From NCBI GenBank assembly GCA_025935675.1, contig JAICUU010000006.1, positions 1 through 39,058 on the forward strand: a stretch of 39,058 nt of DNA. The letters run 5' to 3'. Below are positions 21,867 through 38,965 of the stretch, piece by piece. The stretch's first letter is position 1. Each line of letters starts with the position of its first letter. The stretch is from Burkholderiales bacterium. Its GTDB lineage: Bacteria > Pseudomonadota > Gammaproteobacteria > Burkholderiales > Casimicrobiaceae. A model generated the notes under the pieces. The model had not been told where the DNA came from and ran no database searches. It worked only from the letters and a program-made list of their open reading frames with translations. Made by a program: the position numbers and the translations under genes.

Positions 21867-22129
21867 GATGGATCCTTCGTGACAGCGGCGAGCCGGGCGC
21901 GCTGCGCTCGCCATGGCCGCGTGTGACACGCGGAGGTCCCGAATCGTTCCATCGTAGACCACAAATCCGCCCGCCGCTAAGGTAGGTCGGCGAAGGTCTT
22001 GTATCCTTGGGGTTTTCGGATGCGCGGCCGGCGTCGCCGAGGCATCCTCGCCATGCGTTCCAGGACCTTCGCAATCCCGATGACAACCCTCGCGTCCCGC
22101 GCGCGGTGGTCGCGCGCGGCACCGCAGCG
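21867..22129. other. Divergent intergenic region opgC-like / multidomain transferase
   Basis: The 263 bases separate two divergent starts. The central part (about 21940-22020) is less GC-rich and contains ACCACAAATCC and TTGTATCCTTGGGGTTTTC, so promoters for both directions probably lie here. No hexamer pair or repeat is convincing enough to call. The transferase frame stays open back to 22007, but that extension lacks homologous character. Confidence 0.4.
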
Positions 22130-25100
22130 ATGAGCCGCAACGATCTGTGCGCCTGCGGCAGCGGCAAGCGCTTCAAGCATTGCCATGGACGGGTCGACGC
22201 CGGCGGCAACGGCGGTGGTGTGTCGCCGCCGCGGCTCGAGGCGCTCAACGCGCATCGCGCCGGCTCGCTCGGCCGCGCCGAGGCCCTTTATCGCGAGGCG
22301 CTGGCCGCCAATCCCGCCGACACCGACACGCTGCACATGCTCGGCGTCGTGCAGTTCGAGCGGATGCGCTATCGCGAGGCGCTCGAGCTTCTGTGGGACG
22401 CGGCCGAGCGCACCGGCTGGTCGATCGACGACGTCCGCCACAACGTCGGCCTCGCCGTCGCCAAGCTGATGTCGACGCGCGCCAACGCGCGGCAGGAAGC
22501 GCTGCTCGCGGCGTTCGTCGCGTGGCAGCGCGCGCGCGAGTCGACACCGCCGACGACGCCGCGCGTCAGCGTGGTGCTGCCCTTGTTCAACCATGCGCGC
22601 GTCGTCGCCGAGGCGATCGCCTCGGTCGGGGAGCAGACATATCGCGATCTCGAGCTCGTCGTCGTCGACGACGGGTCCACCGACGACAGTGCCGGCGTGG
22701 CGGCCGCGGCGCTGGCGACCCTCGCGATCCCGACGCAGCTCCTGCGGCGTGGCCACGAAGGCGCGGCCGCCGCCGCAAATGCCGGCTCCGCCGCGGCGAG
22801 CGGAGAGTACCTCGCCTTCCTCGGCGCCGACGACCGGTTTGTCGCGGCGCGCATCGAGCGACTTGTCGCGGAGATCGCGCGCGGCGACCCGCGATGGGGC
22901 TTCTCACGCGTTGTGGAGTTCGGCGACGACGGCCGCGACATCGACGCGGGCGCCGCGGCGATGCGGCCGCCCAATTTCCTCGGCATCGAGCCCGCGAGCT
23001 TCTCGCTGCTCGGCGCGGACGTCACGCGCTCGTCGGGCAATCTGTTCGTCCAGCGCGCGCTGTTCCTGCGACTCGGCGGCTTTCGCGAGGACGCGGGCCA
23101 TCGCGGCTGGGATTTCGCCTGGCGTGCCGCCGAGGCAGTCGAGCCCGTGGTCGTCGAGGCGCCGCTGTACCGGCACCGGCTGCACGCGGGCAATCGCTCG
23201 CGCATCGGCGCGACGCCGGCGACAGGCGCGCTCGATCGCACCGCCAAGGCGCGTCTCGAGGACGCCTTCACGCACGAGCGCACGGTGGCGAACGAGCTCT
23301 CACCGCAATTCCCCGGCAATCGCGAGCTGCTGCTGCGCGCGGAGCTGCGTGCCGGGCATGGCGACCGGGTCCCGGTGCCGGTGCTGCGCGCGGCCGCGGC
23401 GCGCTGGCGTGCCGAAGGGGCGCGGGCGCCGGCCGGCGCCGCTGCCGGCAAGCAGGGCGGCGCGGGTCGCAAGACCGCGCTTGTCGTGCTCGGCGTGCAT
23501 CGCAGCGGCACGTCGGCGCTCGCGCGCGTGCTCAACCTCTGCGGCGCGTACCTGCCCGAGCGCGTGATGCCGGCAAAGCTCGACATCAACCCGAAAGGCT
23601 TCTGGGAGACCGAATCCGTCAACGACCTCGATGCGCGCCTCCTGCATCATCTCGGCGGCGAGTGGAATCGCGTCGATTTCGAGTTGCCGCGCGAAGGCCC
23701 GCTCGTCGACGAGTTCCTCGACGACGCCGAGGCGCTCCTGCGCAGCGAATACGGCGACGAGCCGTTCATCCTGATCAAGGACCCCCGTGTGTGCGTGCTG
23801 GCGCCGCTGTGGCAGCGCGCGCTGGTGCGCGCCGGCTACCGGCCCGCGTACGTCGTGCCGCTGCGCAATCCGCTCGAGGTCGCGCAATCGCTCGAATCGC
23901 GCGGCGACATGCCGGTCGCGCAGGGATTGCTGCTGTGGCTCGCGTACATGGTGCGCGTCGAGGCGTTCGTCGTTGCCGGTGGCGCCGACTTCGTCCACGT
24001 GCGCTACACCGACCTCCTGCGCGACTGGCGCGGCGTAGTCGGCACCGTGGCACGCGCGCTCGACGTGCCGCTCGACGTCGCGCGCGATCCGGCGGGGGTC
24101 GACGCGTTTCTCGAGGACAGCCTGCGCAACCACGCGGCCGACGACGCCGCGCTCGACGCGCACCTCGCCGGCGAGAGCGGCGCAGCGATTCGCGGGGTCT
24201 ACACGCGCTTCCTCGCGCGTGCCGACGGCGATGCCGCGGCGGTGGCGGCGATGCCGGACATCCGCATCGTCGACGACACGCCCGCGCGCGCGGCGACGGC
24301 AAGCTTCGTGCTTTGCATCGAGCAGAATCCCATCCGCGAGCAGGCGCTGCTCCTGTGCGAGAGCATTCGCCGCTTCGGCGGGCGTCATCGCGACGCCGAG
24401 ATCATCGCGTACGCGCCGCGCCCGGGTCTCGGCGTCGACGTGGAAACGCAGCGTGCGCTCGCCGGCATGGGGGTGGCCTACGTCGACGCGCCGCTCAACG
24501 TCGAGTGCCGCGCGTACGGCTCCGCCAACCGGGTCGCCGCGGCCGCGCACGCCGAGCGTCATGCGCGCGGCGAGTTCATCGTCGTGCTCGACAGCGATAC
24601 GGTGATCCTCGAAGAGCCGGCGATGCCGGTCGATGCCGACGTCGCGGCGCGTCCCGTCGACGACAAGGGCAGCGCCACGCGCGGCGAGGGCGATCCATTC
24701 GATGCGTACTGGCGCGCGCTCGCCGAGCTCTGCGGCGTGCCGCTCGAGCGCCTGCCGTGGATCCGCACGACGCTCGGCCACGAGCGCGTGCGGGCGTCGT
24801 ACAACGGCGGTCTCGTCGTCGCGCGCCGCGCATCAGGCGTGCTCGGGCGCTGGTCCGACTTCTTCTTCCGCTCGGCGCGGGCCGGTTTGAAGCCGTACCA
24901 GGGCAGCGGCGTCGAGATCGTCGCGTCGGTGGGCGCGGTGGGTCGCGAAGCGAGCGAGTTCTGGGGCTCGAACCAGGCGGCGCTCGCGCTGGCGATGTGG
25001 CGGGGCGATGCGCGCGTCGCGCACTATCCGGACCGCTACAACGTGCCGCTGCACCTCATCGCGCGCGACGGCGAGATCGATCCTCGCTGGTCGGCGGCGG

Positions 25101-25270
25101 CGCCGGTGCACGTGCACTACCACGGTCTCTTCGCCGGCCGTCATCACGAGATCGCGCTCGATCTCCTCGCGCGCCTCGGCGTTCCCGTCGACCGCCTCGA
25201 TTGGCTGCGGTCGCGCCTGCCGCTCGTGCCGCGTGCGCTCGCCGGCGCCGGCGCGCGCGCGATCGCCTGA
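22130..25270 (+). CDS. SEC-C / TPR / GT2 / sulfotransferase / GT-A multidomain protein
   Basis: The protein has 1046 residues from the ATG at 22130, where the SEC-C motif begins. Domains in order: SEC-C zinc motif NDLCACGSGKRFKHCHG (Cys7, Cys9, Cys18, His19); TPR-like helices about 34-95; GT2 domain 145-345 with VVVDDGSTDDS and LGADD as the metal-binding acidic motif; P-loop sulfotransferase-like domain about 448-700 with 5'-phosphosulfate loop GVHRSGTSAL (455-464) and 3'-phosphate segment PLRNPLEVAQSLESR (577-591); C-terminal GT-A-like domain 725-1005 with VVLDSDT (DxD at 821-823) and HVHYHG. No signal or membrane segment is seen. It could build and sulfate a glycan in the cytoplasm. The acceptor is unknown. 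The next gene is another sulfotransferase 15 bases on. Confidence 0.88.
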   Translation: MSRNDLCACGSGKRFKHCHGRVDAGGNGGGVSPPRLEALNAHRAGSLGRAEALYREALAANPADTDTLHMLGVVQFERMRYREALELLWDAAERTGWSIDDVRHNVGLAVAKLMSTRANARQEALLAAFVAWQRARESTPPTTPRVSVVLPLFNHARVVAEAIASVGEQTYRDLELVVVDDGSTDDSAGVAAAALATLAIPTQLLRRGHEGAAAAANAGSAAASGEYLAFLGADDRFVAARIERLVAEIARGDPRWGFSRVVEFGDDGRDIDAGAAAMRPPNFLGIEPASFSLLGADVTRSSGNLFVQRALFLRLGGFREDAGHRGWDFAWRAAEAVEPVVVEAPLYRHRLHAGNRSRIGATPATGALDRTAKARLEDAFTHERTVANELSPQFPGNRELLLRAELRAGHGDRVPVPVLRAAAARWRAEGARAPAGAAAGKQGGAGRKTALVVLGVHRSGTSALARVLNLCGAYLPERVMPAKLDINPKGFWETESVNDLDARLLHHLGGEWNRVDFELPREGPLVDEFLDDAEALLRSEYGDEPFILIKDPRVCVLAPLWQRALVRAGYRPAYVVPLRNPLEVAQSLESRGDMPVAQGLLLWLAYMVRVEAFVVAGGADFVHVRYTDLLRDWRGVVGTVARALDVPLDVARDPAGVDAFLEDSLRNHAADDAALDAHLAGESGAAIRGVYTRFLARADGDAAAVAAMPDIRIVDDTPARAATASFVLCIEQNPIREQALLLCESIRRFGGRHRDAEIIAYAPRPGLGVDVETQRALAGMGVAYVDAPLNVECRAYGSANRVAAAAHAERHARGEFIVVLDSDTVILEEPAMPVDADVAARPVDDKGSATRGEGDPFDAYWRALAELCGVPLERLPWIRTTLGHERVRASYNGGLVVARRASGVLGRWSDFFFRSARAGLKPYQGSGVEIVASVGAVGREASEFWGSNQAALALAMWRGDARVAHYPDRYNVPLHLIARDGEIDPRWSAAAPVHVHYHGLFAGRHHEIALDLLARLGVPVDRLDWLRSRLPLVPRALAGAGARAIA

Positions 25271-25285
25271 CGGTGCGCTGAAATC

Positions 25286-25876
25286 ATGGTCGTCTCCGAG
25301 CGTTTGCGATGCATCTTCGTCCATGTGCAGAAGACCGGCGGCTCGTCGATCGAGGTGGCGTTGCGCCAGCACGATCCGTCGATTCCCGAGAAGCCGCACA
25401 ACGCCCGCCGGCACCTGGGCGCGCGCGACGTGCGCGAGCTCGTCGGCCACGCGGCGTGGGACGCGAGCTTCAAGTTCGGCTTCGTGCGCAACCCGTGGGA
25501 CCGGCTCGTGTCGTGGCACAGCATGTGCGTGCAGGCGCCCACGCCCAACGCGTTCGGACGCCACGTCAAGGACCATTTCGCGTCGTTCGAGGATTTCGTG
25601 ATGAAGCCCGACGCGATGCTCGCGCGCACTACGGTGCCACAGGTCGACTATCTCGCCGGACCGGACGGCGTGCCGATCGTCGACTTCATCGGACGCTACG
25701 AGGCGCTGCATCAGGATTACGCGGAGGTCGGCCGGCGGCTCGGCATCGACGGCGCGTTGCCGCACGCCAATCGCTCCGCGCATCGCGGCTACCGCGACTA
25801 TTTCAGCGACGCGATGCGCGACACCGTCGCCGCGCGCTTCGCGCGCGACATCGAGCGCTTCGGCTACACGTTCTGA
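25286..25876 (+). CDS. Sulfotransferase family 2-like protein
   Basis: The protein has 196 residues. The N-terminal strand and 5'-phosphosulfate loop read FVHVQKTGGSSIE (loop 15-21), followed by the conserved RRHLGARDVRELVG region. The 3'-phosphate motif is FVRNPWDRLVSWH (66-77). These are the two PAPS contacts of Sulfotransfer_2 proteins, which sulfate carbohydrates. It is shorter than most members, mainly through a short C-terminal region, but ends with the usual RFARDIERFGY pattern. It is probably co-transcribed with the multidomain transferase 15 bases upstream. The convergent APS kinase gene, which would make its donor PAPS, ends 5 bases away. Confidence 0.9.
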   Translation: MVVSERLRCIFVHVQKTGGSSIEVALRQHDPSIPEKPHNARRHLGARDVRELVGHAAWDASFKFGFVRNPWDRLVSWHSMCVQAPTPNAFGRHVKDHFASFEDFVMKPDAMLARTTVPQVDYLAGPDGVPIVDFIGRYEALHQDYAEVGRRLGIDGALPHANRSAHRGYRDYFSDAMRDTVAARFARDIERFGYTF

Positions 25877-25881
25877 CGCGC

Positions 25882-27402
25882 TTAGGTCGTCAGGAACCCC
25901 CGCCGCCGCAGCTCGTCGACGATGCGCTCGGCGGCCGCTTCCGGGCTCTCCGTCGTGCTGTCGATCCGGAGCTCGGGCGAGAGCGGCGGCTCGTACGGCG
26001 AATCGATGCCGGTGAAGTTGGCGAGCTCGCCGCGACGCGCCTTGCGATAGAGGCCCTTGACGTCGCGCGCTTCGGCGAGCGCGAGCGGCGTGTCGACGAA
26101 CACCTCGACGAACTCGCCTTCGGCAAGCCGGGCGCGCGCCATCGCGCGCTCGTCTCGGAACGGCGAGATGAACGCGGTCAGCACGATGAGGCCGGCGTCG
26201 GCCATCAGGGCCGCGACCTCGGCGATGCGCCGGATGTTCTCGACGCGATCGGCAGCCGTGAAGCCCAGGTCCTTGTTGAGTCCCTTGCGCACGTTGTCGC
26301 CGTCGAGCACGTAGGTGTGGCGGCCCTCGGCGTTGAGCTTGCGGTCGACGAGGTTGGCGATCGTCGACTTGCCGGCGCCGGACAGGCCGGTGAACCACAA
26401 CACGCAGGGCCGCTGCGCCTTCTGTGACGCACGCAAGCGCCGGTCGACGTCGAACGCCTGCCAGTGGAGGTTGGAGGCACGGCGCAGCACGAAGCGGATG
26501 AGGCCGATGCCCACGGTCTCGCTCGTCATCCGGTCGATCAGCGCGAAGCGGCCGAGGTCGTGGTTCTCCGCGTACGGCGCGAAGGGCACCGGCCGATCGA
26601 GCTCGATGTCGCAGACGCCGATGTCGTCGCGGTCGAGCTTGCCTGCGGCGACGTGCTCGAGCGTGTTGACGTTGACCCGGTACTTGATCGGCGCGACCGT
26701 CGCGTTCGCGGTGTGCGCGCCGATCTTCATCCGGTAGCTGCGACCGCGCAGCAGCGGCGCCGCGTCCACCCAGACGATCGTCGCTTCGAACTGATCCGCG
26801 CTGGCCGACGGTGCCGCGGTTTTGGCAGCCTCCGCGCCCGCACGATCGGCGTTCGCCGACTCGAGGCATTCGATCAGCGAGGGACCGGTGTACCACGCCA
26901 TGCGCCCGCTTCGCGTGGCGATGTTGTCGCCGCGCGTGGAGGAAACCGGGATCTCGACGATGTCGGCGATGCCGAGGTCGATCGCGAACGCGCGAAAATC
27001 GTCGACGATTGCATCGAACGGCGCTTCGGCACCGTCGACGAGATCCATGCCGTCGACGGCGAGGACGACGTGCCGGATGCCGAGCAGCGACAGGAGATGC
27101 GCATCGCGGCGGGTGGACTCGATGACGCCCTTGCGCGCGTCGACGCGCAGGATCGCGAGGTCGGCGCCCGCGGCGCCGTCGATCATGGGGGCGGTCACGT
27201 GCGCGGCCGACGCATCGACGACGGTGATACGCCGCGCCGTGGAAATCGAGCGGCCGCCGCCATCGTCCGTGCCACCGCCGTGGCCGGCGGCGACAGCCTC
27301 CGGCATGAGCGGGCCCAGCAGCGGGCCCGCGTCATCGCCGCCTCCGCAGACGACGACTCGCAACGGCGGTCGAGCCTGGTCTGCGATGTCGGACGACGGC
27401 AT
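25882..27402 (-). CDS. APS kinase fused to degenerate CysN-like domain
   Basis: The protein has 506 residues. The C-terminal half (about 330-506) is an intact adenylylsulfate kinase: P-loop GLSGAGKST 339-347, [37 protein letters not shown] with Ser413, and [16 protein letters not shown]. It phosphorylates APS to PAPS. The N-terminal half aligns with CysN, the GTPase subunit of ATP sulfurylase, but is crippled. The GTP P-loop GSVDDGKST becomes GGGDDAGPL (20-28). The switch I segment is missing, DTPGH becomes DASAA (63-67) and NKMD becomes DGMD (117-120). Beta-barrel domain II is deleted near 187-204, while domain III (205-305) survives. No cysD is nearby. The stop of the M1-peptidase fusion gene is 25 bases upstream on the same strand. 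Confidence 0.92.
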
Positions 27403-27427: not shown

Positions 27428-30400
27428 CTACTCGATCGACACGGCGATCGTGTTGTCGCGCGGTGTGCGGTCGATCAGCTCGTTCATCGGGTCGATGCCG
27501 GCGCGCGCGGGCCTCGCGGCGACGTCGAAGGTGAACGTCGCGTCCGTGGCGTCGAAGGACCTCTTCTCGAGGTAGAGCGGCTTGCCGTCGGCATCGAGCA
27601 CGCCGACGTCGATCCAGTCGTGCAGCGGCGCGTCCTTCTCGTTGCCGAGGCCGTCCGCCTTGCGCTTGTGCGCGGCGACCTTCAGCGTGACGGCGTAGTG
27701 ACCGTTCGCCAGCGCCCTGGCAGTCGCCGAGACCGCGCGGTTGTCGTAGAGCGTGATCGTCTCGAACATGTCCTCGATCAGGTACTGGTACTTGCCCGGC
27801 GTCACCTCGCGCAGGTCGCGCAGGAACTCGGTCGTGTTGGGGTAGGGCGGGCCCTTGAACGCGTGGTCGTCGCGGAATTTGCGCAGTGCGCGGTCGACGT
27901 TGTCCTCGCCGATGTAGTCGGCCAGCGCGTACATGACGAGGCTGCCCTTCCGGTAGTGAATGTAGTCCTGGTTCTCGACGCGCGCGAGCGGCTGCTCCTT
28001 CTTCTGCTCGGTGGCGCGACCCAGCAGGTAGCGGTCGAGCTCGTACGCGAGGAAGCGCTGCATCTTCGCGGCACCATACTTTTTCTTCATCACCATCAGC
28101 GCCGAGTACTGCGAGAAGGTCTCCGACAGCATCGCCACGCCCTGCACGTCGCCGCCGATCACCTGGTGCGCCCACCATTGGTGCGCGACCTCGTGCGCGG
28201 TGACGTAGTACGGGTAATCGATGTCGTCCTTCGCGTCCTCGCGCACGCGGGCGATGAAGCCGATGCCCTCCGAGTAGGGCACGGTGTTGGGGAACGACTG
28301 CGCGAACGTCGCGTAGCGCGGGAACTCGATGATCCGGAACTGGCGATACTGGTACGGCCCGAAGTTCGTCGAGTAGTAGTCCAGCGACGCCTTGGTCGCG
28401 TCGAGCATCCGCGCTATGTTGTACTCGTGGCCGGGCTGGTACCAGACCTCGAGCGGGACGTCGTGCCAGCGGTCCTTGCGCACCGCGTAGCGTCCCGACT
28501 GCACGGCGAAGAAGTCGAGGATCGGCACGTCCATCCTGTACAGGAAGTGGCGGCGGCCACCGTCCTCCCATTCGCGGTCCAGGTAGCCCGGCGCGATCGC
28601 AAGCTGGTCGGGATCGGTGCTGACCTCGGCCTCGAAGCTCACCCAGTCGGCGTAGGGCGTGAGGCCGTTCGCCGCGAGCCCGGCCGGATCGTCGCGATCG
28701 CGCATCCGCTCCTTGGGCGCGAGCCCGAACTTCTTGCGATCGCGGTCGCTCAGCAGCTCGACGCGCTCGTCGTAGCCGATCACGGGCAGCGCGAAGAGGC
28801 CGTTGACGAAGCTGCCGTTGTAGACGACCGCGGTGTTGCTGCCTCGATTCTTGAACCCGTGCGTCGCCACTTCGATGTCGAACGTCATCGTCAGCGCCGC
28901 GCCCGGCGCGAGCGGCGTCGCCAGCCGGTAGCTGCGCACGCCGGTCAGCTTGTCGTCGTCGGCGAGCGTCGCCGGCACGCCGAAGTCGATCGTGCGGATG
29001 TCGACGTCGTCGCCTTGCAGCCAGCCGAGGTGGATCGTGTCGACCGCGGCGGCGTTGCGATTGACGAGACCGAGCGTGCCGTGCATCCGCACGCGCTGCT
29101 CGCGCGGAAAGAGGTCGATCGCGACCTTGACCGCGGAGACCTTGGGCTGCGGGTCGGCGGCCGTGCGACGGTACTTCTTCTCGTAGTCGGCCTGCCGCGC
29201 CTGCATGTCGTGGCCGGTGACGTAACGGTTGAGGATGTTGGTGTTGTAGAAGATGAAACCGCCGAGCGCGGCGGTGGCGAGCGCGCCGATGCCGGCAAAT
29301 GCTGCAACACGCGGCGTCAGGCGCGCGCGCGCCTGCACGAGACGGCCGCGCCAGCCGGTCGGCGTGCCACGCGCCCATGCGAGGTAGGCGGTGATGGCGA
29401 GCAGCAGCGCCCAGCCCGCGTAATAGGCGTTGAACGCGCGAAGGCGCGGCAGGAAGTGACCGTAGCCGTTCATGTCCGAGTACGTGTACTCGGCCTCGTT
29501 GCCATAGAGGTAGAGGTTGTGCTCGAAGCCCAGCGGCACGGCGAAGGTCACCAGCAGGAAGTACACGATCATCAGGAAATGACCGAGGTACTTGTGGCCG
29601 ACGAGCGATTGCAGCGTGATCGCGAGCACGCAGACGAGCCAGTACTGGACGAGGCCGATGCCGAAGAGCTCGTGCAGGTAGAGGAGCGGCTCGTAGTGGT
29701 GGTAGCCCTTGACGGTCTGGATCGCCATGCCGCACAGCATCAGCACCGCCTGCAGCACGACGGGCACGAGCATCAGCGCGAAGAGCTTGGCGAGGAACGG
29801 CAGCCACGTCGGGATCGGCAGCGCGTCGTGGATCTGGTCGAGGCGGTTGTCGCGCTCGCGCCATACGAGCTCGCCCGCGTAGAACGTGATGATGACGAGC
29901 ATGAACACGCCGAACGAGCCCGCGACCAGCCCGGTCATCTGGTAGGTCACCGGCCACGTCGACGTGCCGAAGATGCTGCCGAGCGTGGTGCTGGCGAACA
30001 CGATGAAGGCGATGCCGGCGAGCGCGAACACGGCGAAGTAGATGTTCTTCACGGTCTCGCGGAAATAGAGCCACGTCATCCGCGGCAGCAAACCGAGCGC
30101 GCCGAAGCGCCCCGGCGCGGGCGCGGTCGCGCGGAACGGCACCACCGGCGGCTCGGCGACGGCGCCGGCGACGCGCGGCGCGCGCGTGCCGCTGGCCGGC
30201 CACGCGAAGCGAAAGCGCCAGTAGCAGAACGCCATGATCGCGGCGCCGATGCCGATCCACAGAGCGCGGTTGGCGGCGAGCACGCCGTCGAGCGGCACCA
30301 GCGCCGCGTTGCGGTCGGCGATCGTCCAGTAGCGCGTCAGCACGGCGGCGGCGGTGACGCCGAAGGGATCGATCAGCGCCGCGATCGTCTTGTTATCGAC

Positions 30401-31015
30401 GTCGCGCAACAGCGAGCGCGCGATCAGGTAGCCGATCAGCGCGAGCACGCTGCCGAGGTAGACCGGCAACATCCGCCGCGACAGCGCGGCGACGCAGAAG
30501 AACACGCCGCCCAGCCAGATCAGGTTGGGCAGCAGCATCGTCGCGTACGGCAGCACGTAGGGCAGCAGTCGCCGCGGGCCGAGCCGGTCGGGATCGATGC
30601 CGGGGAGGAACGTGCCGAGGAACGCGCCGATCGAGAGGCTCGACAACACGACCAGCATCACGACGAGCGCCCCGGCGAAACGGCCGCCGAGGTAATGCCA
30701 TTTGGCGATCGGCGCGGTGAAGAAGAAATTCTCGGTGCGGTTCTCGAAATCCTGCTGGACCGCGCGGCCGGCGATCGCCGCGATCACGGTCAGCGCGGCG
30801 AGGCCGAGGAATGCGATCGTCTGCTGGATCGCGTAGGGCGAGTTGATCCAGACCTTGCTGCTGTCGAACACCACCGCCGCATCGGCGAACACGCCGCCGG
30901 CCGCCGCGGTCCACAGCAACGCCAGCGCGCCGAACACGATGAAGTACACCCACGTCGACAGCCGCCGCAGCCTCGTGGAGACCTCGAAGCCCGCGATCGC
31001 GAGAAGATTGCCCAT
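27428..31015 (-). CDS. ABC-2 permease fused to M1-like metallopeptidase
   Basis: The protein has 1195 residues. Residues 1-270 and 310-600 hold about twelve transmembrane helices in two ABC-2-type sets, with the typical [17 protein letters not shown] and [19 protein letters not shown] coupling segments. From about 620 to the end lies an M1 aminopeptidase-like ectodomain. Zinc site HEVAHQWW (941-948) with Glu965 as third ligand gives HExxH-x19-E, one residue longer than classical M1 enzymes. The GxMEN exopeptidase motif is not seen, and FPNTVPYSE stands in its place. It probably couples transport across the inner membrane with periplasmic proteolysis. The partner ATPase gene ends 9 bases upstream. 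Confidence 0.92.
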
Positions 31016-36218: not shown

Positions 36219-36908
36219 TTACGCGACGCGCCGGTAGCCGGTGACGACGAACGACGCGCGAGGCTCGAAGCCCAGCGATCCGTAGAACGCGATTACCGGC
36301 GCCTTGGTCGCTTCGACGTGCAGGAACGGCACCTGGCCGGCATCGAGCATCCGGTCGATGACCTCGGCCATCAGCGCGCGCGCAATCCCCCGACCCTGCG
36401 CATCCGGGTGCGTGCAGACACCGCTGACCTCGCGGTGGTCGTCGATCCACATCCGCTCGCCGGCCATCGCCACGATGCGGCCGGCCTCGCGCACCCCGAC
36501 GAAGCGGCCGAGGTCGATCGTGCGGCGGCAGAACGGCCCGGGCCGCGTGAGCTCGACGAGCGCGAGCATTGCATCGACATCGTCATCCCCGAGCTCGTCG
36601 AATGCGATCGCCGGCGGCGGCAGCGGCGCGCGATCGCGACGGATCATCTGCAGGATGCCCATCTGGCGGAAAATCTCGAAGCCCGCGGGCGTGGCCGGCA
36701 TCTGCGGCCCGAACACGGCGATCTCGTCGCCGACGCCGGTCATCGCCACCATCGCGTCGGCGCAGGCCTGCGTCGGCGCGGCGAGCGCGCACAGCGGCGA
36801 GACGTCGCGCGGATAACGGCGGGCGAGGTCGCCGCCTTCGGCGATCGGCGCGTGGCGCGAATTGAGCGACGCCCAGACCGGATTGTCGAGCGCGCGCTCG
36901 GCGATCAT
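36219..36908 (-). CDS. GNAT-family N-acetyltransferase
   Basis: The protein has 229 residues. The C-terminal GNAT core is clear: FVGVREAGRIVAMAGERM is strand 2-3, VSGVCTHPDAQGRGIARALM is motif A with the acetyl-CoA pyrophosphate loop QGRGIA (171-176), and VPFLHVEATKAPVIAFYGSLGF is motif B. The N-terminal 100 residues are a diverged region as in FR47-like proteins. Its ATG overlaps the stop of the hydroxylase-sulfotransferase gene by ATGA, so the two are translationally coupled. It may acetylate the same or a related product (inference). The frame extends upstream of 36908, but only as a shadow of the overlapping gene. Confidence 0.9.
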   Translation of the reverse strand: MIAERALDNPVWASLNSRHAPIAEGGDLARRYPRDVSPLCALAAPTQACADAMVAMTGVGDEIAVFGPQMPATPAGFEIFRQMGILQMIRRDRAPLPPPAIAFDELGDDDVDAMLALVELTRPGPFCRRTIDLGRFVGVREAGRIVAMAGERMWIDDHREVSGVCTHPDAQGRGIARALMAEVIDRMLDAGQVPFLHVEATKAPVIAFYGSLGFEPRASFVVTGYRRVA

Positions 36909-38965
36909 CCGCCCGACGTCGCCGTGGCCGGCGTGGCGCCCGCCTGCGCGCGCGCGACGAACGCCTTCGCGCGCTCGCCGACCCGCGCGAGCGCGGCGCG
37001 GTGCGGCGCGATCGCGGCTTCGCGGCGACGCCATTTCTCCGGAGCGGGTGGCGTCAGCGTATGGCGCGACAGCGGCAGCGTCGCCGGCAGCGCCCGGTCC
37101 CAGTCGAGCGCGGCGAAGCGACAGATCGCGCGCACGCAATCCGTCGGGCTCGCCAGGAACTCGCGATAGGTGAGCGCGTGGACGCGCTCGCGCGGCAGCT
37201 TGTCGAGGTCGTCGAGCAGCACCGATTGCGTGCGCAGCCATTGCGTCGCCGCGATCGTCGCCACGTCGGCGCCGATCAGGTCCTGCCATCCGGGCACCAG
37301 CAGGAACGACCAGGGCAGCCCTTTCCAGCCCGGCAGGTTCGCGTACATCACGAAGCGTCCGGATTCCCAGCCGTCCATCATGCTGGCGACGTTTTCGTCG
37401 AAGTCGCGATACAGGTAGACGAAGCGCGCATCCGGGAACGCGGCGTCGAGGAACGGCACGCGCAGCGCGTTCTTCGGCGTCTTCTCGAGGAGCCGCGGCG
37501 CGCCGTCACCGGGCGCGCGACCGTCGCGATCCCGCAGCGCCTTGCGGAAGCGCTCGTGAAGCTCGGCGACGACCGCCGGTGTCGCAGCCGTCGCATCGGC
37601 GCGGTTGGATTGCGGGCCGTTGATCGACGGCCGCAGCGCGGCGATCGATTCGAGCTGGTCGTGGCTCTCGCCGCCGACCGTGTAGAGGCCCGGCGCGTCG
37701 GCCAGCGTCTCGAACAGCAGCGTGCTGCCGGAGCGCGGCGCCGCGACGATGATCAGCGGTCGCGTGAGGCGCGCTTGCGGTGGCGATGCTTCCTTGCGGA
37801 CGAAATTCGGCAGGCCCCATTGCACGGTGAGCTTCGGCATGATGGAGAGGGGCGAGGTCGCTGCAGCGGCGGCAGCGTCATCGGCACCCGCGGCAGTGAC
37901 CGCTGAAGGCGGCGCCGGCGGCGTCACGGTGCGAAGGCCCGGCCTCGCCGCGACCGGCTGCGCAGCCTGGCCGAGCTCGGGCACCTGCGTCGCGGTGGCC
38001 GGCATCGCGACAGGTGCCGCACGCGCGGTCGATGCGGCGGCGGCAAGCTCGGGGCTCATCAGCGCCGGCGCGAGCGACACCTTGAGCAACGCGGCGAGGT
38101 CCATCCTGTTGGGCAGCACGATGCGGCCGGCATGCGCGTCACCGAGCGCGGCGATGCGGTCGCGCAACGCCGCGAAATGCGCGAAGCCTTCGGCGCGATC
38201 GCCGAACTCGGCCCACGCCGCTCGCCAATCGCCGAACACCGCTTCGACGGCCGCCTCGAGGGGCGCGAGCGACGCTGCCGCCGTGCCGCCGGCACGCGCG
38301 TCGGCGACCCAGCGGCTCCACAGGCTCGCCATTTCGGCGGGCGCCATCACGATCGGATAGTTGTTCGACTCGAAGCGCAGCGACGGCGCTGCACCCGGCT
38401 GATACGGCACGTCGACGGCCGCGCCGCCCGCTTCGACGCGCTGCCAGAAGCTCGCGCTGCCGACGGTGTCGATGACGAGGTGAATCCGCTGCGCGTTCGC
38501 CGGGTTGAGCACGTTGTGCACGCGCCAGGTGTCGAAGATCCAGCAGTCGCCGGCGGCCATGTGCGTCGACGCGTCGCCGCACAGGAACGTGACGTCGGGA
38601 AAGGTAATCACCGGGATGTGCACCCGCACGCGCTGCTGCCAGTAGTAGCTCAGGTCGACGTGCGGCGTCGCCTCGGCGCGCGCGTCGAGGCGCATCAGAC
38701 GGCTGCGGCCGAGCGTGACGTCGAGCGCGCCCATTGCCTGCATCAGGTACGGACACCGGGCGAGATGCGGCGTGGGGCGCATCGGGCCGGCGACACCATC
38801 GTCGAGCGGGTTGCCGTGGCGGGCGATGTACGGCAGCGCCGAATTGCCGGGATGGCCCTGCGGATGCGGGCGCCATTCGGCCTCGGTGAATTGCGCGACC
38901 TCCGCCGCGAGGCGTGTCGCATCGAAGCGCAGCGGAAGCTTGAAAAAGGGCGCGGAAAGTTGCAT
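36905..38965 (-). CDS. Asp/Asn beta-hydroxylase-like domain fused to sulfotransferase
   Basis: The protein has 686 residues. Residues 1-185 resemble Asp/Asn beta-hydroxylases, which are Fe(II)/2-oxoglutarate oxygenases. Iron ligands are His102 (PHVDLSYYW, with Asp104 possibly a third) and His150 (TWRVHNVLN), and Arg160 (QRIHLVIDT) would bind 2-oxoglutarate. A helical region 205-305 and an Ala/Pro linker 310-375 follow. Residues 400-670 are a sulfotransferase with 5'-phosphosulfate loop APRSGSTLLF (409-418), LLEKTPKNALRVPFL, and 3'-phosphate segment VYLYRDFDENVASM (516-529). The fusion suggests hydroxylation followed by O-sulfation of the same substrate (inference). No signal peptide is seen. 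The gene overlaps the GNAT gene. Confidence 0.9.
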   Translation of the reverse strand: MQLSAPFFKLPLRFDATRLAAEVAQFTEAEWRPHPQGHPGNSALPYIARHGNPLDDGVAGPMRPTPHLARCPYLMQAMGALDVTLGRSRLMRLDARAEATPHVDLSYYWQQRVRVHIPVITFPDVTFLCGDASTHMAAGDCWIFDTWRVHNVLNPANAQRIHLVIDTVGSASFWQRVEAGGAAVDVPYQPGAAPSLRFESNNYPIVMAPAEMASLWSRWVADARAGGTAAASLAPLEAAVEAVFGDWRAAWAEFGDRAEGFAHFAALRDRIAALGDAHAGRIVLPNRMDLAALLKVSLAPALMSPELAAAASTARAAPVAMPATATQVPELGQAAQPVAARPGLRTVTPPAPPSAVTAAGADDAAAAAATSPLSIMPKLTVQWGLPNFVRKEASPPQARLTRPLIIVAAPRSGSTLLFETLADAPGLYTVGGESHDQLESIAALRPSINGPQSNRADATAATPAVVAELHERFRKALRDRDGRAPGDGAPRLLEKTPKNALRVPFLDAAFPDARFVYLYRDFDENVASMMDGWESGRFVMYANLPGWKGLPWSFLLVPGWQDLIGADVATIAATQWLRTQSVLLDDLDKLPRERVHALTYREFLASPTDCVRAICRFAALDWDRALPATLPLSRHTLTPPAPEKWRRREAAIAPHRAALARVGERAKAFVARAQAGATPATATSGG

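Follow-up and report, generated by a model that had tools for sequence, protein, structure and literature searches.

The closest described relatives of the protein reported here are the bifunctional CysNC proteins, or NodQ (PRK05506), for whose CysN part chain B of structure 1ZUN serves as the reference; as the available excerpt of PMC5770160 describes this structure, CysN contacts CysD around switch I and switch II. Dead domains retained on live enzymes of sulfate activation are described in the accessible part of PMC13213808. The APS kinases of Entamoeba histolytica and T. denitrificans (3cr8) carry a dead ATP-sulfurylase-like domain at their N termini, and deletion of this domain from the Entamoeba enzyme was reported to cause aggregation and a kcat about a hundredfold lower, with the authors' own caution that destabilisation may account for part of the deletion effect. 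The filamentous-fungal ATP sulfurylase is presented in the same text as carrying a dead, allosteric APS kinase domain. Outside the pathway, septin pseudoGTPases have lost GTPase activity repeatedly with the G-domain fold kept (PMC10731463, in the part available). No dead form of CysN appears in the accessible parts of the CysN/NodQ surveys PMC1780047 and PMC4342817, and no GTP-dead CysN fused to an APS kinase was found in the open-access literature among the matches listed, at the level of titles and abstract openings.

The gene analysed here lies in a window of 39,058 nucleotides, by which we mean the whole stretch of DNA that was examined. Its product shares with CysNC a colinear descent, domain III, the linker, CysC and the predicted fold of domains I and III, but it is without the GTP motifs, domain II and a CysD partner, and it scores 572.7 bits against PRK05506, for which the cut-off is 715 bits. 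The arrangement of a dead N-terminal sulfate-activation domain before a predicted live APS kinase is also that of the T. denitrificans and Entamoeba enzymes; their dead domain, however, is of the Sat type, whereas that of the window protein is of the CysN/EF-1alpha G-protein type. As in the fungal ATP sulfurylase, a dead partner domain is kept on a putatively live pathway enzyme, but with the roles reversed. The septins, by contrast, belong to an unrelated pathway, being eukaryotic filament proteins in which the fold is kept for assembly interfaces according to the excerpt of PMC10731463.

The CysN-CysC gene and its degenerate GTP site

The open reading frame 25882-27402 on the minus strand has exact bounds, starts with ATG and encodes 506 amino acids. 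Its parts are as follows.

25882..27402, minus strand: entire gene, a pseudo-CysN with domains I and III followed by a predicted APS kinase, 506 aa (ORF, Pfam and alignment)
26848..27363, minus strand: G-domain remnant, residues 14-185 (Pfam GTP_EFTU at residues 57-162; AlphaFold2 pLDDT)
27322..27345, minus strand: degenerate P-loop (G1), residues 20-27, GGGDDAGP (alignment)
27202..27216, minus strand: degenerate G3, residues 63-67, DASAA for DTPGH (alignment)
27043..27054, minus strand: degenerate G4, residues 117-120, DGMD for NKMD (alignment)
26800..26850, minus strand: linker at the site of the missing domain II, residues 185-201 (none of the 35 conserved domain II positions)
26485..26799, minus strand: domain III beta barrel, residues 202-306 (Pfam PF22594; pLDDT about 90 or more over residues 201-300)
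25960..26412, minus strand: predicted APS kinase domain with its catalytic motifs preserved, residues 331-481 (PF01583, TIGR00455 and invariant columns)

The Pfam GTP_EFTU match (31.1 bits) pairs residues 57-162 with profile positions 69-176 only, leaving the start of the profile unmatched, and domain III is recognised by GTP-eEF1A_C at residues 204-302 (91.1 bits). PF01747, the Sat-type model, is absent among the matches of the N half, which are GTP_EFTU and GTP-eEF1A_C. The C half matches APS_kinase PF01583 over residues 331-481 with 227.7 bits (cut-off 21.1), and TIGR00455 (CysC, NCBIfam) with 246.5 bits, above the curated cut-off of 138.7 that defines the APS kinase family. Both CysN models fall short (TIGR02034, 227 against 336.1 bits; PRK05124, 212.9 against 590 bits), as does the CysNC model cited above. 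Of the features of CysN, the protein has the predicted fold of domains I and III and is without G1, G3, G4, domain II and a CysD partner. By the tests made, the window protein is an APS kinase and neither a CysN nor a working CysNC.

To gauge the losses position by position, we took 30 CysNC proteins with intact motifs as a yardstick and scored every position that at least 80% of them conserve. The P-loop keeps 3 of 9 conserved positions (GSVDDGKST has become GGGDDA-GP) and its lysine is gone. The switch I region keeps 8 of 37, with 19 falling in gaps, and the G3/switch II region 4 of 14, where DASAA stands in the DTPGH region and the G3 glycine is missing. In G4, DGMD replaces NKMD, with loss of the asparagine-lysine pair. 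Domain II retains none of its 35 conserved positions. The remainder of the protein is well kept: domain III retains 41 of 49 positions and the CysC half 95 of 101, and K345, S346 and D367-N370 of the latter are invariant across 50 aligned rows. The original prediction had described the gene as a GTP-dead CysN remnant on an APS kinase in an open frame, and the alignment to intact CysNC bears out every observed element of that description: the loss of the nucleotide motifs in G1, switch I, G3 and G4, the excision of domain II, and a kinase half that appears intact both by conserved positions and by the family cut-offs.

An AlphaFold2 model of the window protein was built from 50 aligned rows, intact CysNC among them. 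The mean pLDDT was 85.2, with values of about 90 or more for residues 81-180 and 201-300 and mixed or low confidence for residues 1-80; the pTM of 0.59 leaves the packing between domains uncertain. The best solved match of the modelled N half was 1zun_B, the CysN of the P. syringae CysDN complex (Z 32.2, 290 residues, 3.3 A), and those of the modelled C half were APS kinases (Arabidopsis 3uie, Z 30.6). A CysN-like fold of the dead half is thus predicted, and it is partly inherited from the intact CysNC proteins, because these stood in the input alignment. L123, modelled from its single sequence, gave a mean pLDDT of 37.1 and a model without use.

Homologues of the compact layout and states of erosion

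The compact layout, consisting of domains I and III and CysC without domain II, was found in at least ten distinct proteins, that of the window included; nine are complete and one (G273) is split over two contigs. Three belong to the window's genus (the window protein, G350 and G338) and seven to a Sulfuricellaceae-type clade (G014, G243, G273, Sulfurimicrobium L038 and L040, Sulfuricella L039 and the Nitrosomonadales bacterium L042). Ten is a lower bound, since one set of relatives consisted of the best 80 of 416. Among the matches listed from 300 genomes of the order, G014 and G243 were compact besides the window protein; in 64 genomes of the window's family, the congeners G350 and G338 showed the same layout with a GTP site even more reduced. 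No more compact forms were present among the matches listed from a profile search of 369 class and 398 phylum genomes, two partly overlapping sets that both include the window's own genome. The loss of the GTP site differs by group: the Sulfuricellaceae type keeps NKMD and the P-loop lysine and is without the whole G3 segment, whereas the window protein keeps the G3 strand and has lost the P-loop, switch I and G4.

Several other candidates were rejected. G069 and G566 have ordinary CysN with intact motifs and an adjacent CysD, L114 (Granulosicoccaceae) possesses domain II despite a compact-looking match, and L041 (Woeseiaceae) is an ordinary CysNC. A viral origin was likewise discarded, as a scan of viral contigs returned no relative. 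In Phenylobacterium sp. J426 (L109), CysNC occupies two overlapping frames with CysC divided between them, owing to a frameshift or a sequencing error.

The window's genome is a metagenome-type draft in 410 contigs, 95.66% complete, and an assembly or frameshift artefact of this one genome might be suspected. However, the frame is open, the coding GC pattern by triplet continues through the dead half (GC3 0.86 vs. 0.93), and the layout is repeated in nine other distinct proteins. An artefact is therefore highly improbable, and refuted in substance, because the homologues share the layout. Nor did the search yield intact-motif homologues from which the window protein would differ by sequencing error only: the eight complete homologues of the same layout also have broken motifs. 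The dead version without cysD had been called unusual; such forms are not unique, since at least ten distinct compact proteins exist.

On the best tree, compactness needs three changes, and the compact groups were joined in none of the 200 bootstrap trees examined (of 1000), a count that left out the solo kinases, G348, L114 and L126. No joint clade, on the other hand, is rejected by AU tests: p is 0.13-0.24, and it is 0.49 for a joint clade of the Sulfuricellaceae type with G350, G338 and the solo kinase G347. Domain II may have been lost once or several times.

Within the window's family, the related genes occur in four states. In G336, G337 and G316 (the last from another genus of the family), divergent CysNC proteins have intact motifs and an adjacent CysD. 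In G342, G341, G353 and G335, domain II is kept and G1, G3 or G4 is broken to varying degree; these genomes have Sat and no CysD. In the window protein, G338 and G350, domain II and the motifs are both gone, and in G347 (84% complete) the CysN part is absent altogether and the APS kinase is preceded by a short stub of linker. These forms are a series of states and not a line of descent, because at least two CysNC lineages are present on the tree. The intact proteins (L149, L150 and L159) form another, divergent lineage of CysNC whose P-loop, GHVDHGKS, resembles that of EF1A, and the CysD proteins adjoining them reach only 169-183 bits against TIGR02039 in their best stretch. In the kinase-only gene (L151/L130), the stub preceding the kinase is that of the domain III linker, WQHVDIDK, and the CysN half seems to have been lost entirely.

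Absence of CysD and presence of Sat

The original prediction that the gene stands without cysD is borne out genome-wide. No match to PF01507 (the CysD/CysH family) was found in the window's genome, and the same search was positive in 14 of 14 control genomes; TIGR02039 (CysD) also gave no match in that genome. The genome encodes a complete Sat, the unrelated ATP sulfurylase, which matches above the curated cut-offs and contains the QTRNP and GRDHAG motifs. The sat gene is on a different contig from the CysN-CysC gene; a search of the genome with the CysN-CysC protein, up to an E value of 10, gave no second match. The suggestion that the dead half docks to CysD is left unsupported: we reject it because no CysD was found in the genome, and the lost switch I and switch II are the CysD contact regions given in the excerpt of PMC5770160.

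Across 22 genomes of the genus, the window's own included, 16 have Sat only, three CysD only, three neither and none both; the threshold for CysD was E 1e-5, and of the three CysD proteins two score below the family cut-off. Simple arithmetic, which ignores relatedness, puts the chance of this exclusion at about 0.013. PF01507 was also absent from 10 of 10 further genomes of the genus. Elsewhere in the family, CysD and Sat do co-occur (G301, G083 and, as fragments, G323). Among the Sulfuricellaceae-type genomes, G014 has no PF01507 match and the match in G273 is recognised by none of the CysD and CysH models, and a Sat-type protein is present in G014, G243 and G273. The sole PF01507 match in G243 (L215) is DndC, a DNA phosphorothioation sulfurtransferase (587.9 bits against a cut-off of 290.4). 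G014 further encodes a bifunctional Sat-CysC (L217; PRK05537, 813.4 bits, above cut-off) beside the pseudo-CysN-CysC, and therefore has a second APS kinase; G273 (L121) has a comparable ORF of 582 aa, in which PF01747 is accompanied by a CysC-like part.

The status of cysD could be scored together with the motifs for 40 of the 57 tree rows, the others lacking a usable N part or an established cysD status or consisting of solo kinases; for L038-L040 and L042, absence of cysD covers the available stretch of sequence and not the genome. cysD is missing from all 13 rows with broken motifs or without domain II and present in 25 of the 27 intact ones (Fisher p 9e-9, relatedness ignored). The two exceptions, G340 and G344, have intact patterns and no CysD match, in draft genomes with contamination of 9% and 6%. 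A relatedness-aware independent-pairs test was not significant (3 pairs, p 0.5), and the association between motif loss and cysD loss rests on few independent events because only three independent pairs are available. The two exceptional proteins (L147 and L148, respectively) are CysNC that keep the G1/G3/G4 patterns, although searches of their genomes gave no match to CysD or to Sat.

The same two proteins, with G1/G3/G4 patterns kept and no CysD found, might speak for a still-working GTP-dependent ATP sulfurylase subunit served by an unrecognised CysD. For the window protein this is scarcely conceivable, as such a subunit would have to work without the P-loop lysine, most of switch I, the G3 glycine, the G4 asparagine-lysine pair and domain II, in a genome in which no PF01507 match was found by a search that was positive in every control. 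We regard it as likely that Sat, standing in place of CysD, was the cause of the death of the G half.

Constraint on the dead half and its possible role

The relatives of the window protein are too distant for dN/dS with it, and selection on the dead half is therefore read from comparisons among those relatives. For six of the seven Sulfuricellaceae-type compact forms (the split G273 was left out), pairwise dN/dS with codon bootstrap was 0.37 (0.29-0.47) for the G domain, 0.28 for domain III and 0.063 for CysC. For the congeners G350 and G338, the values were 0.59 (0.41-0.86), 0.32 and 0.094; the upper bound of 0.86 is near neutrality, and this alignment is less sure because the G domains are only 44% identical. 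For three congeners with broken motifs and domain II kept, they were 0.67 (0.52-0.91), 0.55 and 0.16. The ratio of G domain to CysC was 5.8-6.3 in the compact forms, against 0.8-2.3 in three sets of intact CysNC, and in neutral simulations the mean dN/dS was 0.76-1.29 and the lower 2.5% limit did not fall below 0.47. The dead half of the relatives is constrained, though about sixfold relaxed compared with the kinase, and is not neutral debris. The claim that the CysN fragment is retained accordingly stands as to purifying selection in relatives, and is weakened by the sixfold relaxation and by the kinase of G347, which has no dead half.

The main rival to a structural role is a passenger in slow decay, in which the dead half has no positive role and the constraint reflects the harm that a badly folded extension would do to the kinase. 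The relaxation, the graded erosion by which a single genus contains intact, motif-broken and domain II-less forms, and the kinase with only a linker stub in G347 all speak for it. However, the dN/dS of the Sulfuricellaceae type is lower than the range simulated under neutrality, domains I and III both persist in ten distinct proteins of two groups, and domain III of the window protein is well kept at its conserved positions. We hold the passenger explanation to be possible but rather doubtful.

Among those ORFs of the window that were scanned for Pfam domains, three have sulfotransferase matches, one of them weak. These and the ORF upstream of the CysN-CysC gene are listed below.

25286..25876, plus strand: sulfotransferase (Sulfotransfer_2), convergent neighbour, possible PAPS user (Pfam)
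22007..25270, plus strand: 1087-aa glycosyltransferase 2 protein with a SEC-C motif and a weak Sulfotransfer_3 match at residues 639-690, below the Pfam cut-off (Pfam)
36905-38965, minus strand: aspartyl/asparaginyl hydroxylase and a strong Sulfotransfer_3 match in one gene, which may be a PAPS user (Pfam)
27428-31015, minus strand: one ORF that combines parts of an ABC-2 permease with an M1 peptidase domain (Pfam)

The CysN-CysC gene lies end to end with the convergent sulfotransferase gene 25286-25876 and starts 25 bases downstream of the ABC-permease/M1-peptidase gene on the same strand. In the Sulfuricellaceae type, a 612-aa ORF precedes the gene in all five loci with enough flank (L033, L034, L039, L040 and L042). 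In L039 this ORF is an asparagine synthase (Pfam), and the series there runs sugar transferase, histidine kinase, sigma-54 regulator, asparagine synthase and then pseudo-CysN-CysC.

On balance, we think it probable that the gene descends from a bifunctional CysNC whose G half died where CysD was lost and Sat makes APS, and that the dead half is kept as a structural extension. Sat would make APS, the CysC half would phosphorylate it to PAPS, and the PAPS would feed sulfotransferases; in the window's genome PAPS most likely serves sulfation, because no PF01507-type PAPS/APS reductase was found. By analogy with the Entamoeba enzyme, and as the least certain step, the dead G core and domain III may persist because they improve the folding, assembly or turnover of the kinase. 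A structural extension of a sulfotransferase-supplying APS kinase is the most likely functional reading of the dead half. It is limited by G340 and G344, which keep the motif patterns although no CysD was found, and by G347, where the dead half is dispensable because the kinase lacks it.

The dead half might instead act as a docking or regulatory module that binds Sat for APS channelling, a sulfotransferase or a ligand, and so controls PAPS output. Dead sulfate-activation domains do regulate elsewhere, as described for fungal ATP sulfurylase and Entamoeba APS kinase in the accessible part of PMC13213808, and the pseudo-G core is predicted to fold; but sat is on another contig than the CysN-CysC gene, and a fast-evolving G half is a poor fit for a specific interface. 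We consider such a module quite unlikely.

If the structural-extension reading is carried further, repeated displacement of CysD by Sat would turn CysNC into a new class, pseudoGTPase-APS kinases, whose trimmed G core and domain III would serve as a scaffold that promotes activity or docks Sat. Excision of domain II would have led to it more than once, and it would be the CysN counterpart of what dead Sat-type domains do for other APS kinases; we put this forward as a tentative and rather unlikely extension. The genus and family provide a natural set in which a G protein is dying stepwise where its catalytic partner was replaced, and its states allow a direct test of what use a fused enzyme still has for a translational-type GTPase half once GTP plays no part. 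For annotation, the finding is a caution that the label "CysNC" or "sulfate adenylyltransferase subunit 1" is not equivalent to ATP sulfurylase activity or to assimilatory sulfate reduction.
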